Source: Armatimonadota bacterium | GTDB taxonomy: Bacteria > Armatimonadota > Hebobacteria > CAIYQO01 | Reading direction: 5' to 3' | DNA length: 34,594 bases | Assembly (NCBI GenBank): GCA_029553475.1 | Contig: JAKPKV010000062.1 | Location: 1-34,594 of the forward strand | Part shown: piece after piece, positions 29,476 to 34,255 of the stretch | How positions within the stretch are numbered: the first letter of the stretch is position 1 | Layout of the letters: the number at the start of each line of letters is the position of its first letter | Notes under the pieces: model-generated | The model's database searches: none | The model's input: the letters and a program-made list of their open reading frames with translations, nothing else | Told to the model about the DNA's origin: nothing | Translations under genes and position numbers: made by a program

Positions 29476-30050
29476 TTGAGGCCACGGATCGTCACCGTCC
29501 CCTGATCCTGTGTTCCGCGCCGGCGGAGAAGTTCCTGTTTTGCGCGCGGACCACGGGCAGGATACCCGGAAATGGGGCATGGCGTATCCCCGTCTTGCTG
29601 CCCCCGTGCGCCGCGTTATCGGTTTGGTCGCGGTATATAGGGGAAGGGGCTGGGGGAAGCCGTCCCCCGGATTCACATCCGGGGCTGGAGCCACGAAGTC
29701 CACCGTCGTGGATTGGCCGGATCGGGCCGACGGACCGGATACCGAGCAACGCGGGAGGAATGTGGCAAAGAGCATTACGCCGCCCACCACTGGGGCCGCG
29801 GAGTTGTACTCCGCACGAGTTTGCATTCTCTTTGTTCAACGAAAGGGTGAGGTCACTCGTGCGGAGTACAACTCCGCGGCCCCAGTTTGGGCGGCGTACA
29901 ACGAACCAGGAACAAGGAACAATGTTCCCAGGCGGACGATGGGGGCCGTGTTCGCGCGGATGCCGCGGGGGGAAGCGGCGCAGAACTCCGCTTCCCCCCT
30001 GCTTTTCTCTTCCCCTCGGCGGCGTGCGCGGCCGCCGGGGGGAGGGGGCG
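29476..30050. other. Gene-free stretch rich in hairpins
   Basis: No gene is supported. It holds possible ECF -35 words near 29512-29535, a hairpin CCCCGGAT-TCAC-ATCCGGGG (29676-29695 region), a CCACGA/TCGTGG hairpin directly after it, and the large palindrome at 29776-29899. A purine- and C-rich tract lies at 29975-30050. Confidence 0.6.
29776..29899. repeat. Palindromic repeat, ACTCGTGCGGAGT family, complete copy
   Basis: Perfect 32-bp arms (29789-29820 and 29855-29886) surround a 34-base loop. With one single-base gap the pairing extends outward through a TACGCCGCCCA word on each side, to roughly 45 bp. A half copy lies at 3257-3285. There is no coding potential and no T-run. Confidence 0.85.
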
Positions 30051-30692
30051 TCAGCGGTAGGGGCCGTTGAACACCAGGTGGACCGTGAAGCCGGTGCCGC
30101 TGCCGTCATTCGGGAAGATGAGGCCGCCGAGCAGGCCCACGCGGTCGGTGAACTGGTAGTTGACGCCGGCGGAGGCGCTGTTTTCGTCCCCGGCGGTGTA
30201 GTCCGCCATCAGCGTCCAGCGGGCGCCGAGGGGGGCATCAATGCCGACGAAGGGGCGGGTGTTGCCCTCGGCGCGCTGGACCCCCAGATGGCCGCGGCAG
30301 GCGGTGAAATCCCGCGTGCCGACCAGGTAGGGGACGGCGGTGAGCCCGTTGCCGATATTCTGCACCCCGGCGGCCAGCGCCAGGGCGCCGTCCCCGCCGG
30401 TGGCGAAGACGTATTTGCCATTGAACAGCACGCGGGGATCTGCGCCCTTGCTGAGGTCGAAATCCACGCCGACTTCCACGCGGTCGCCGAGGCCGATTTC
30501 GGTGTTCAGGATGTGGGTGTCGCTCTCGAACGGCGACGTCGGGCCATCGGCCTGGAGCTCGATGCCGTATTGCCCGGCGCCGACGGTGTCGGCGGTGGGA
30601 ATGACGGTGAGGCCGCTGTAGCAGGCCAGGCCGGGGACGGCTGCCGCGAGCAGGCAGGCCAGCGCGGGCAGCAGGTGACGACAACATTTCAT
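30051..30692 (-). CDS. Predicted outer-membrane beta-barrel protein
   Basis: The 213-aa protein has a signal peptide (LLPALACLLAAAVPGLA, cleavage before CYSG). Then come alternating amphipathic strands: SGLTVIPTADTVGAGQYGIE, THILNTEIGLGDRVEVGVDF, ARWTLMADYTAGDENSASAGV, VGLLGGLIFPNDGSGTGFTV. The opening G-L-x-x-I-P-T-A-D recalls YjbH-type barrel proteins. It could be an outer-membrane protein of unknown role. Start 30692 is firm: AAAGGAG lies six bases upstream. A Cys at the predicted cleavage point raises the option of a lipoprotein, but the residues before it do not make a good lipobox. Confidence 0.7.
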   Translation of the reverse strand: MKCCRHLLPALACLLAAAVPGLACYSGLTVIPTADTVGAGQYGIELQADGPTSPFESDTHILNTEIGLGDRVEVGVDFDLSKGADPRVLFNGKYVFATGGDGALALAAGVQNIGNGLTAVPYLVGTRDFTACRGHLGVQRAEGNTRPFVGIDAPLGARWTLMADYTAGDENSASAGVNYQFTDRVGLLGGLIFPNDGSGTGFTVHLVFNGPYR

Positions 30693-30719: not shown

Positions 30720-30824
30720 TTGTGACGGCGAGGCAGCCTGTGGTAGAATCCCATTGCCGGCGTGATTCACGCACGCTGCCCCCGGCCCTCGATGTTGGCG
30801 CATGGAGGGCCGGTTTATGTTTTT
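30720..30824 (+). ncRNA. Candidate small RNA unit (promoter plus terminator)
   Basis: A plus-strand promoter, TTGTGA (30720-30725), an 18-base spacer and extended -10 TGG-TAGAAT (30741-30749), is followed about 33 bases later by a GC-rich stem (30782-30789 against 30806-30813) and TTTATGTTTTT to 30824. No plus-strand gene follows; both neighbours are on the minus strand. The predicted RNA is about 69 nt, starting near 30756. No known RNA family was recognised. Confidence 0.45.
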
Positions 30825-30848
30825 CGCGTCATCGCCTCCCGGCGACGA

Positions 30849-31007
30849 TCAGTCCGGTTGACGACCGTTATCCGTCTGCTCGTGGCAGCGGCACTCGGTG
30901 CAGCCGGTGCATTTCTCCTCCTTGCCGACGATGATCCGGTAGAACGCCCGCCCGGCGAACACCGCGGCAGCGCCGACGAGCAGGATGACGATGAGGGTTT
31001 CCCACAT
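30849..31007 (-). CDS. FeoB-associated Cys-rich membrane protein
   Basis: The 52-aa protein starts with MWETLIVILLVGAAAVFAGR, a single transmembrane helix. It then has a cytoplasmic or periplasmic tail with KCTGCTECRCHE, a C-x2-C-x2-C-x-C cluster. This is the hallmark of the FeoB_associated family, which accompanies FeoB in many anaerobes and is thought to help ferrous iron transport. ATG 31007 is preceded by AAGGAGGT. It lies 11 bases after feoB and is the last gene of the feo operon. Confidence 0.92.
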   Translation of the reverse strand: MWETLIVILLVGAAAVFAGRAFYRIIVGKEEKCTGCTECRCHEQTDNGRQPD

Positions 31008-31018
31008 GGATGACCTCC

Positions 31019-33175
31019 TTACGCGCCCCCCAGGGGCAGGCGGCTGCCGATCTGATAGACGATGAGCGTCACCAGGTAGGCCAATGCGGTGAGTCCGGCG
31101 AATTGCAGCAGCGCCCAGCGCCAGGAGTTGCTCTCGCGCTTCGTGACGGCCACCGTCGCCATGCACGGCGCGGTAATCAGGCAAAACAGCATGATGCAGT
31201 AGGCGACCAGCGGCGAATACTGCTTCCGCAATTGCGCCCGCAGCGAGTCGGACGACTCGTCCGCTTCGCCCACGGCGAAGACGATGCCGAGCTGCGCCAC
31301 GAACACCTCCTTGGCCGCCACCGCGCCGATGAGCGCCGTGCCGATGCGCCAGTCAAACCCCAGCGGGCGCAAGGCCGGCTCCATCGCGTGGCCGATGCGC
31401 CCGGCCGCGGTGTAGGCGAGCGTCTCCGCCTGCTCGGCTTCTTCGAGCTCCTGCAGCCGCTGGTCGAGGGCCTCCTGATCCTGCGCGAGCTGCTGCTGCG
31501 CCTGCTGGGTCAGCGCCGGGTAATCCTGCGCGAACACCGTTTTTTTCGGGAAACTGGTGAGCACCCAGAGGAGCACGGAGATGCCGAGAATGATGGTGCC
31601 CGCTTTGCGCAGGTACAGCCACCCGCGCTCCCACATGTGCAGCAGGATGCTTTTCACGGTGGGGAGGCGGTAGGGCGGCAATTCCATCACGAAGGGGGCG
31701 GTCTCGCCTTTCAACAGGGTGATGCTCATCAGCTTGGCGCTGCCGATCGCCAGCAGGATGCCCAGGATGTACAGCGACCAGAGCACCGGCGCCTGCAGCG
31801 CGTGCGGAAAGAAGGCGGGGATGAGCAGCACGTAAATCGGCAGGCGCGCGCCGCAGCTCACCAGCGGCACCACCAGCATGGTGAGCAGGCGATCGCGCCG
31901 GTTCTCCATGGTGCGGGTGGCCATGATGGCGGGCACCGAACAGCCGAAGCCGATGATGAACGGGATGAAGCTCTTGCCGTGCAGCCCGAACTTGTGCATC
32001 AGCCGGTCCATGATGAAGGCCGCGCGCGCCATGTAGCCGGTGTCTTCCAGCAGGGCGATGGCCAGAAACAGCAGCAGGATATTCGGCAGAAAGACCAGCA
32101 CGCCGCCGACGCCGGCGATGATGCCGTCAACCAGCAGGGATTGCAAAAGACTTTCCGAGCCGCTCGGCCACCACCCCGTTACCGTCGAGCCTAACCACCC
32201 GAAAAAGCCGTCAATCCAATCCATCGGCGGCGTGCCCAGCGTGAAGGTGAGCTGGAACACGAGATACATCAGGCCGAGGAAGAGCGGCATCCCCAGCCAG
32301 CGATGCGTGACGAGGGCGTCAATGCGGTCGGAGAGGTGGCGTTTCGGCTCCGGCGTGCTCCGCACGGCATCGCGGCAGAGCTCGGCAATCGCGCGGTAGC
32401 GGCGGTCCGCGATGGCGATCTCCGGGGGATTGTGCAGGGCCTCCTCGATGCGGGCGCTGCTCCGGTCTACCTGCGCTGACACGCGGGGCGCGCTGATGCC
32501 GGCGGCAACCGCCTCATCGCCTTCGAGCAGCTTGATCGCGCGCCAGCGGGCGTCTCCGTGTTGCGCGTCGCCGTCCTGCGCGAGGAGCGCGGCCAGCGCG
32601 GCGATTTCCTCTTCCACCTCCTGGCCGTAGGTGATGGGCGCGGGCGCCGGCGGCGCGTGCCCCTGGGCGACCGCGACGACCGCGTCGAGCAAGGCGCGGG
32701 TGCCTTCGTTGCGCGTGCTGACGAGCGGCACCACGGGCGCGCCGAGGAGCCGAGAGAGTCGTGCGGCATCAATCTGGATGCCGCGACGCTGCGCCACGTC
32801 GCTCATGTTCAGGGCGAGCACCAGCGGCTGGCCGAGTTCGATGAGCTGCAGCGTCAGATAGAGGTTGCGCTCCAGGTTGGACGCGTCGAGGATATTGACG
32901 ACCACCTGCGGGCGCTCCTCGATGAGGTAATTCCGCGCCACCAGCTCGTCCACGGCCGCGGCGGTCAGGCTGTAGACGCCCGGCAGGTCCACGACGTGGA
33001 TCTCGGTGCCGGCGTGCCGGCAGCGCCCCTCTTTCTTCTCCACCGTCACGCCGGGATAATTTCCCACGTGCTGGCGCGCGCCGGTCAGGTTATTGAACAG
33101 GGTCGTTTTCCCGGTGTTCGGGTTGCCGGCCAGCGCGATGGTGATCGTCTTGGCCGGGGTTGCGACGGATGTCAT
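31019..33175 (-). CDS. feoB: Ferrous iron transporter FeoB
   Basis: FeoB imports Fe(II) across the inner membrane. The 718-aa protein has an N-terminal G domain: G1 GNPNTGKTT (17-25), the switch NYPGVT, G3 DLPGVYSL and G4 ALNMSDVA. A helical guanine-dissociation-inhibitor region follows to about residue 270. The membrane part has two Gate motifs, with [22 protein letters not shown] in the first. A Gln/Glu-rich helix (residues about 545-575, [20 protein letters not shown]) sits between the Gates. Residue lengths fit the family. ATG 33175 has an AAAGGAG some ten bases upstream. It is preceded by feoA with a separate promoter and iron-box-like sequence between them. Confidence 0.97.
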
Positions 33176-33219
33176 CGTTTCCAGGCTCCTTTGGGTGAGG
33201 TTCTTCGCGTGGACATACT

Positions 33220-33248
33220 TATATAGCCTCGCCTAACTTCCGGGGCAA
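33220..33248 (-). promoter_or_regulatory. feoB promoter with DtxR-like half sites
   Basis: On the minus strand TTGCCC (complement of 33243-33248), 17 bases and TATATA (33220-33225) form a promoter. Its spacer contains TTAGGCGAGGCTA, which resembles the TTAGG-N5-CTAA type of DtxR/IdeR boxes imperfectly. Confidence 0.5.
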
Positions 33249-33254
33249 AAAAAA

Positions 33255-33506
33255 TTACCCCACGAGAATGCGGTGCGCCATGCCGCGGTCCAGCGCCAAC
33301 CGGCTCTCCTTCACGGCGATGATGCACGGGCCGCCGAGCGACGCGCTGATGACCGTCAGCTCCACGCCGGGGTAGACGCCCAGGGCGGCCAGGCGCGTCC
33401 GCAGCTCGCTGCCGCCGCGGATGTCATGCACGGTCACCGGGCGGTCAGTGGGCGCCAGCAGCAGCGGCAGGCCGCTGCCGGATCGTGGCGGCAGAATGGG
33501 AGTCAT
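33255..33506 (-). CDS. feoA: FeoA-domain protein
   Basis: FeoA is a small SH3-like cytoplasmic partner of FeoB. The 83-aa protein shows DRPVTVHDIRGGSELRTRL, ALGVYPGVELTVIS, and GGPCIIAVKESRLALDRGMA, the usual FeoA pattern (L-x-x-L-G-x-x-P-G). It overlaps the upstream regulator's stop by four bases (ATGA), so the two are coupled. A run of eight Ts follows its stop codon directly, but without a clear stem. Confidence 0.93.
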   Translation of the reverse strand: MTPILPPRSGSGLPLLLAPTDRPVTVHDIRGGSELRTRLAALGVYPGVELTVISASLGGPCIIAVKESRLALDRGMAHRILVG

Positions 33507-34255
33507 GCGCGCGGCTCCACGGCGATGCAGGCGGTCTCCTCCCGTCGCAGCGACAGGTGGTACCCTTTCACTTTCACGTCAATCGGATCCCCCAGCGGGG
33601 CCACGCGTTCGACTTCGACCAGCGTGCCGGGGGTGAGCCCCATGTCGAGCATGCGGCGACGCAAGCTCCCTTGGGCGGTGATGGTGGTGATGGCGCCTTT
33701 TTGCCCCGGCTGCAGGGTGGTCAAGGTGACAGGCATCGGTGACGGTGCTCCTTCGGTCGTGGATGTGCTGGCGACGGCGTCCAGGCACTGCCGGATGCAC
33801 GCCGCGCACGCGCCGATCTCCCCGGACTCGCACAGGGAGGCGAACCCGCGGATCCATTGATGGCCGCCGCGCGGGCAGCGTTTGATGAACTCGACAAAGC
33901 CTACCAGCCGCTCCAGGATCGGGCCACGGATGACGTGCTCCAACTGGCAGGCGGTCGCCTCGGCGGTCGGCGCGTCCAGCAGCAGCACGTCGGCGCAGAA
34001 TTCGCGCAGCGCTTCATGGCGCTTCACGACGCTCTCTGCCAGCTCCCGGCCCGCGGCCGTCAAGGTGATCACATCGTAGGGGGCGTAATTGACGAGGCCT
34101 TTTTCGGACAGCAGGCGCAGCGCGCCCGTCACCGACGGGCCCGTCACCGTCAGGTGCGCGGCGATGTCTTTGCTGCGCGCCGCCCCCTTGCTGGCGGCGA
34201 TGAGGAAGATGGCTTCCAAATAGTCTTCTAAGCTGGCGCTTAACGCCTCGGTCAC
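33503..34255 (-). CDS. DtxR-family metalloregulator fused to FeoA, with a Cys cluster
   Basis: The 250-aa protein has a winged helix-turn-helix (about residues 10-65, ARSKDIAAHLTVTGPSVTGA), then a dimerisation/metal-binding domain with His80-Glu81 and ACQLEHVI (Cys103, Glu106, His107). A five-Cys linker follows (Cys127, 142, 150, 153, 157). It ends in a FeoA/SH3 domain (176-247, LRRRMLDMGLTPGTLVEVER). DtxR-family proteins repress iron-uptake genes when Fe(II) or Mn(II) is bound. The Cys pattern C-x14-C-x7-C-x2-C-x3-C suggests a bound Zn or Fe-S cluster. GTG 34255 has AGAGGA seven bases upstream. It heads the feo operon and its promoter carries a clear palindrome. Confidence 0.92.
   Translation of the reverse strand: MTEALSASLEDYLEAIFLIAASKGAARSKDIAAHLTVTGPSVTGALRLLSEKGLVNYAPYDVITLTAAGRELAESVVKRHEALREFCADVLLLDAPTAEATACQLEHVIRGPILERLVGFVEFIKRCPRGGHQWIRGFASLCESGEIGACAACIRQCLDAVASTSTTEGAPSPMPVTLTTLQPGQKGAITTITAQGSLRRRMLDMGLTPGTLVEVERVAPLGDPIDVKVKGYHLSLRREETACIAVEPRA

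Follow-up and report, generated by a model that had tools for sequence, protein, structure and literature searches.

Behind the feo operon of an Armatimonadota bacterium (assembly GCA_029553475.1, contig JAKPKV010000062.1), a promoter-like and a terminator-like sequence follow one another on the strand opposite to the genes, which raises the question of whether this interval encodes a small RNA and on what such an RNA would act. The window, meaning the whole stretch of 34,594 nucleotides under analysis, was therefore considered together with further sequence of its own genome and with other genomes of the phylum. The reading that emerges as reasonably probable is that the interval constitutes a small-RNA gene belonging to a new family confined to this phylum, and that its product would most likely pair with the opposing message between the metal gene and the next gene.

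The features of the locus are collected in Table 1. The first-pass annotation had described TTGTGA-18-TGGTAGAAT, a GC stem and a T-rich tail at 30720-30824, with no plus-strand gene on either side; these coordinates proved exact, and both flanking genes are on the minus strand. Folding of 30756-30825 (70 nt) gave -35.7 kcal/mol with a z of -3.4. The standard scan of the window listed the promoter and missed the terminator, because its rule permits loops of 3-8 only. No Fur/DtxR box was seen by eye at the small-RNA promoter, and the palindrome GCGTGATTCACGC, considered as an operator, was set aside, with 2 exact and 14 near matches across the genome compared with 7 in the control.

Table 1. Features of the window around the candidate small-RNA unit
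Feature	Position	Strand	Basis or remark
Strong hairpin with T tail, dG -28.4	29965-30002	+	between two minus-strand genes; no promoter seen
Gene for 213-aa protein (gene after feo)	30051-30692	-	no Pfam match; signal-peptide-like N-terminus (by eye); gene starts at 30692
-35-like hexamer TTGTGA	30720-30725	+	promoter scan
Inverted repeat, left arm	30732-30750	.	GGCAGC 30732-30737, GTG 30740-30742, GAATC 30746-30750
Extended -10 box TGGTAGAAT	30741-30749	+	sequence, alignment of members
-10 hexamer TAGAAT	30744-30749	+	preceded by TGG; spacer of 18 to TTGTGA
Predicted small RNA, ~69 nt	30756-30824	+	start inferred from -10 box
RNA 5' hairpin CGGCGUG / CACGCUG	30758-30778	+	folding, wobble counts
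Inverted repeat, right arm	30764-30780	.	GATTC 30764-30768, CAC 30772-30774, GCTGCC 30775-30780
Terminator hairpin, conserved apex TGTTGGCGCA	30782-30813	+	hairpin scan, wobbles, covariation; CCGGCCCTC 30782-30790 pairs with GAGGGCCGG 30805-30813
T-rich tail TTTATGTTTTT	30814-30824	+	sequence, members
feo operon: DtxR-FeoA fusion, FeoA, FeoB, FeoB_associated	30849-34255	-	converges on RNA; FeoB_associated gene ends at 30849
feo promoter TTGACA-17-TAGAAT, then GTTAGTCGAAGCTAAC, a DtxR-like dyad (by eye)	34340-34295		ahead of DtxR-FeoA fusion gene

Whether such a promoter-terminator pair could arise by chance was assessed in a genome sample of 40 stretches of 20 kb plus the window, amounting to 835 kb at 66.9% G+C. 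The sequence TGNTANAAT is a real promoter box in this genome, as 31 of its 51 occurrences in the sample are found immediately before a gene on the same strand or at its 5' end. Hairpin-plus-T sites with dG <= -25 occupy 12 rows (overlaps counted), the window terminator among them, compared with 2 in one Markov control. When a promoter scoring at least 9/12 was combined with a terminator at or below -18 within about 230 nt, four units (5 rows, one duplicate) were recovered, compared with 3 in 12 Markov genomes, and units in the wrong orientation numbered 0. The four are tRNA-Pro, tRNA-Val, L198:7357 and the window unit, the last consisting of a promoter followed by a hairpin and U tract that serves no protein gene. 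These control counts indicate that the pair in the window is more than chance. The unit gives one match in its own genome and is thus not a repeat, which disposes of the first-pass alternative that the stem is only that. Elsewhere in the same genome, L198:7357-7540 constitutes a further promoter-terminator unit with no tRNA or Rfam match, and a cobalamin riboswitch is located at L198:917-1065. The assembly yielded no 16S gene.

Relatives of the unit were sought in 291 genomes of the phylum with a series of covariance models. The model built from the window alone (R1) gave matches at E <= 0.1 in 26 of the 291 genomes, and most of those inspected were discarded as lying inside reading frames or being plain terminators. 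One match, in G047, shares the apex TGTTGGCGCA and has TGGTAGAAT at its start; it is situated 1.2 kb past a FeoB match, on the far side of a Fur gene and in the opposite orientation to that gene. A second model (R2), built on the window and G047, retrieved G073, G077, G079 and G071 at 38-55 bits; the matches ranking below them scored near 30. A third (R3), built on G047, G073, G077, G079 and G095, retrieved G045 (44.8 bits, at the end of its feo operon), G075 (44.1), G072, G101 and G094, scored G285 at 29.9 and G071 at 23.8, and re-found the window at 38.6 bits, a result that is not independent because the training members had come via a model containing the window. Acceptance was based on the box and both structures, neighbours not being used, and led to a family of 13 members in 13 of the 291 genomes (the window and 12 others).

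Among 30 R3 loci, the 11 with a GGTA box were kept and 19 rejected; G077:C43 (32 bits), without that box, was left out, as were the R2 loci L263, L266, L267 and L269, which have the box but no matching hairpin pair, and L265. The sole DNA-similarity match besides the window (61 genomes), in G014, shares the 22-nt promoter box and was left out as its hairpin differs (R2, 20.5 bits); at that locus, L252:464-566, the same promoter box is followed by a different hairpin and a T-rich tail. The R2 and R3 searches found the element in none of the 13 same-class relatives (G001-G013), of which G001, from the same genus and 78% complete, lacks close relatives of the window FeoB and of the next gene, and R3 gave 0 matches against 80 FeoB loci of other phyla. 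The expectation of conservation in close relatives, as first put forward, therefore fails literally, the element being conserved in other families of the phylum instead. One of the relatives, G017, matches an Abditibacteriaceae record with full identity across 6001 bases; this family is assigned to Armatimonadota by GTDB and to Abditibacteriota by NCBI.

The -10 box reads GGTA in 13/13 members and TAnnnT in 12/13 (the -10 of G073 is TAAAAC), TTGnnn stands at the -35-like place in 4/13, and the tails make only weak terminators in G047, G073 and G077. At L267:1500-1585 in G281, TGTGGTATAATACC occurs upstream of rpsF-ssb-like genes (by eye), indicating that the box serves the phylum as a general promoter.

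Paired stem changes in related genomes had been proposed as a check of the stem, and they are present. In the 13-row alignment, fitted to a model that five of its rows had trained, 24 of 28 base pairs changed on both sides, as did 66 cells; 90.0% of cells pair, compared with 38-47% in slid versions, and none of 500 shuffles reached any of the covariation or pairing values. Three helices are involved, two forming an inverted repeat around the -10 box (its left arm contains the box in the window copy) and one forming the terminator. Within the repeat the -10 side is constant and the partner side varies, the pattern that a promoter would show. Wobbles across the 13 members, counted with a pairing routine scoring G-U and A-C alike, favour the plus strand over the other in the terminator (25 vs 4), in apex pairs wholly after the -10 box (18 vs 2) and in the 5' hairpin available to the RNA on its own (21 vs 7), compared with 20 vs 17 for pairs reaching to or upstream of the box. 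The asymmetry thus sets in approximately at the predicted start. This favours a plus-strand RNA with its 5' end at that point over a single RNA running through the entire repeat on just one of the strands; the inverted repeat may act as DNA, or in both RNAs.

The genes flanking each member are listed in Table 2. Feo, Nramp, ABC-3, Fur or DtxR genes lie beside 8 of the 13 members, and no metal gene is in view at the remaining five, including G077 near its contig end; beside rejected matches the count is 0/10 (20 flanking proteins, from a subset of the rejects). A convergent neighbour is found at 10/13 members, G094 and G095 having none. Palindromes of the form TTAACYATGGTTAA, MntR-like by eye, occur on the gene strand upstream of the elements of G077 and G095 (L282 and L285). 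Taken together, covariation, strand-specific wobbles, the conserved box and T tail, and recurrence at metal loci support the free-standing small-RNA unit first suggested for the window, as far as sequence comparison can indicate.

Table 2. Genes beside the 13 members of the family
Member	T-tail side	Other side
Window	FeoB_associated	213-aa protein
G047	Fur (after FeoAB)	DUF1559
G073	ABC-3 permease	no named family
G079	small ORF after Nramp	OprB
G071	DtxR	DUF1559, then Nramp
G285	Fur	no named family, then FeoA-like (small ORF, by eye) and FeoB
G045	213-aa relative (after FeoB)	none
G072	Nramp	DUF1559 (by eye)
G077	no named family, near contig end	OprB
G075	SMI1_KNR4	DUF1559
G101	DUF1559	PEP-CTERM
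G095, G094	non-convergent gene	DUF1559

The gene for the 213-aa protein is the next after feo both in the window genome and in G045, where the relatives of FeoB_associated and of the 213-aa protein are directly adjacent; from this adjacency, the window pair probably belongs to a single operon that contains the element. The window RNA would lie opposite a gap between co-directional genes whose co-transcription is suggested by the G045 gene order. Since its predicted end falls approximately 24 nt short of the last feo gene, it would be antisense to the intergenic gap and not to feo coding sequence.

In the proposed mechanism, RNA polymerase would start at the extended -10 box and transcribe about 66-81 nt, the RNA folding into a 5' hairpin followed by the terminator hairpin. 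Transcription would end at the stop codon of the convergent gene for metal uptake or metal regulation, or shortly ahead of it. Such an RNA would be fully complementary to the opposing message between the metal gene and the next gene, and its most likely action would be to pair with that stretch, possibly in connection with metal levels. Of the nine members that have a downstream gene close by, eight have a message that can fold into a long hairpin concealing an arm able to pair with the ribosome-binding site; the antisense RNA has the sequence of the opposite arm and could displace that arm, which would turn the downstream exported-protein gene off. In the window copy this ribosome-site pairing is missing, and its action may be confined to pairing with the message, or be exerted in trans.

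The pairing was tested for the nine members whose start codon lies no more than 45 nt away, comparing the near arm with the ribosome-binding region: relative to shuffles, p <= 0.014 was obtained in 5/9, 0.05-0.12 in 3/9 and 0.65 for the window, which is moderate evidence because the shuffles preserve nothing but composition and ribosome sites resemble one another. The distance from element to start codon is fairly constant in these nine (26-40 nt); in G045 the element stands after the operon with no gene behind, and in G072 and G075 the next gene starts more than 100 nt away (starts judged by eye). The displacement switch is therefore plausible for the relatives and unsupported for the window copy. 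A bolder formulation, doubtful at present, is that the family represents a new class of sense-antisense metal-homeostasis switch, with a promoter in a covarying repeat and an RNA whose mirror arm frees the anti-ribosome-site arm, shutting the surface-protein gene behind the metal importer.

Other readings of the same structure have to be weighed. A longer plus-strand RNA starting upstream of the repeat could be an antisense-acting metal riboswitch, with the long hairpin as aptamer and the terminator as a switch over antisense transcription into the metal operon; in its favour, a long hairpin with covariation precedes a terminator and the unit converges with metal-uptake genes, and antisense-acting riboswitches at operon 3' ends have been published (PMC9943018). 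It is nevertheless unlikely, given that pairs reaching upstream of the -10 box lack a strand preference, that no other common promoter box is seen upstream by eye, and that GGTAnnnT fits a promoter and also precedes unrelated genes (L267). There is a similarly small chance that the structure is a minus-strand leader, a cis translation switch in the downstream message (for the 213-aa protein, OprB or a DUF1559 pseudopilin) without any plus-strand RNA; the fairly constant start-codon distance and the arm complementary to the ribosome-binding site would be expected of such a leader, whereas the wobbles of the terminator and 5' hairpin and the T-rich tail all point to the plus strand, and the G045 element has no gene behind it.

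Improbable, too, is a trans-acting small RNA, RyhB-like in role, with targets elsewhere and only an incidental antisense overlap: the conserved terminator apex, the free-standing unit and the metal-gene neighbours agree with it, yet it would offer no explanation for the covarying inverted repeat around the promoter. The absence of the element from close relatives is what one would expect if the resemblance to a promoter and a terminator were due to chance, or if the interval held an intercistronic stability hairpin with no transcript of its own; the randomised-genome counts together with covariation over 13 genomes make that reading very improbable.

Comparison with known systems suggests that the preferred reading, a small RNA pairing with the opposing message, concerns an apparently undescribed unit of promoter, two hairpins and terminator. 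Rfam 15 at the gathering cut-off gave 0 matches in the window, this being the check initially recommended for the interval, and no tRNA or tmRNA match; at E<=5 the window stretch gave two chance matches only, far below the cut-off, and the 12 member loci one viral frameshift match, also below it. Neither a description of this RNA nor a small-RNA study for this phylum was found in the literature searched, which covers subscription journals thinly. The predicted RNA would work like a cis-antisense or small trans RNA, and the searches place it in no named family.

IsrR and RNA-beta of Vibrio are cis-antisense small RNAs of iron or metal genes, and the predicted RNA would likewise lie opposite a metal-related message, whereas it overlaps only the intergenic gap, has its own terminator and belongs to a conserved structured family with a covarying repeat around the promoter. 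The yybP-ykoY manganese and NiCo riboswitches share the metal-gene neighbourhood and the hairpin with terminator; unlike them, the present unit has no Rfam match and is oriented opposite to the genes. RyhB-type small RNAs are Fur-controlled and short, with a terminator and an iron context, and the unit resembles them in its predicted length, terminator and iron context, differing in its locus structure and in showing no Fur/DtxR box by eye. Antisense-acting riboswitches are structured RNAs at operon 3' ends in antisense orientation with a terminator, features that the predicted RNA would share, while it has no known aptamer and its predicted start lies inside the hairpin (PMC9943018).

For this little-studied phylum, the finding would mean a small-RNA family connected with iron and manganese uptake that yields clear sequence predictions. 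Should the promoter-in-hairpin design operate in the proposed way, it would provide a compact coupling of an importer and an outer-surface gene within one operon.
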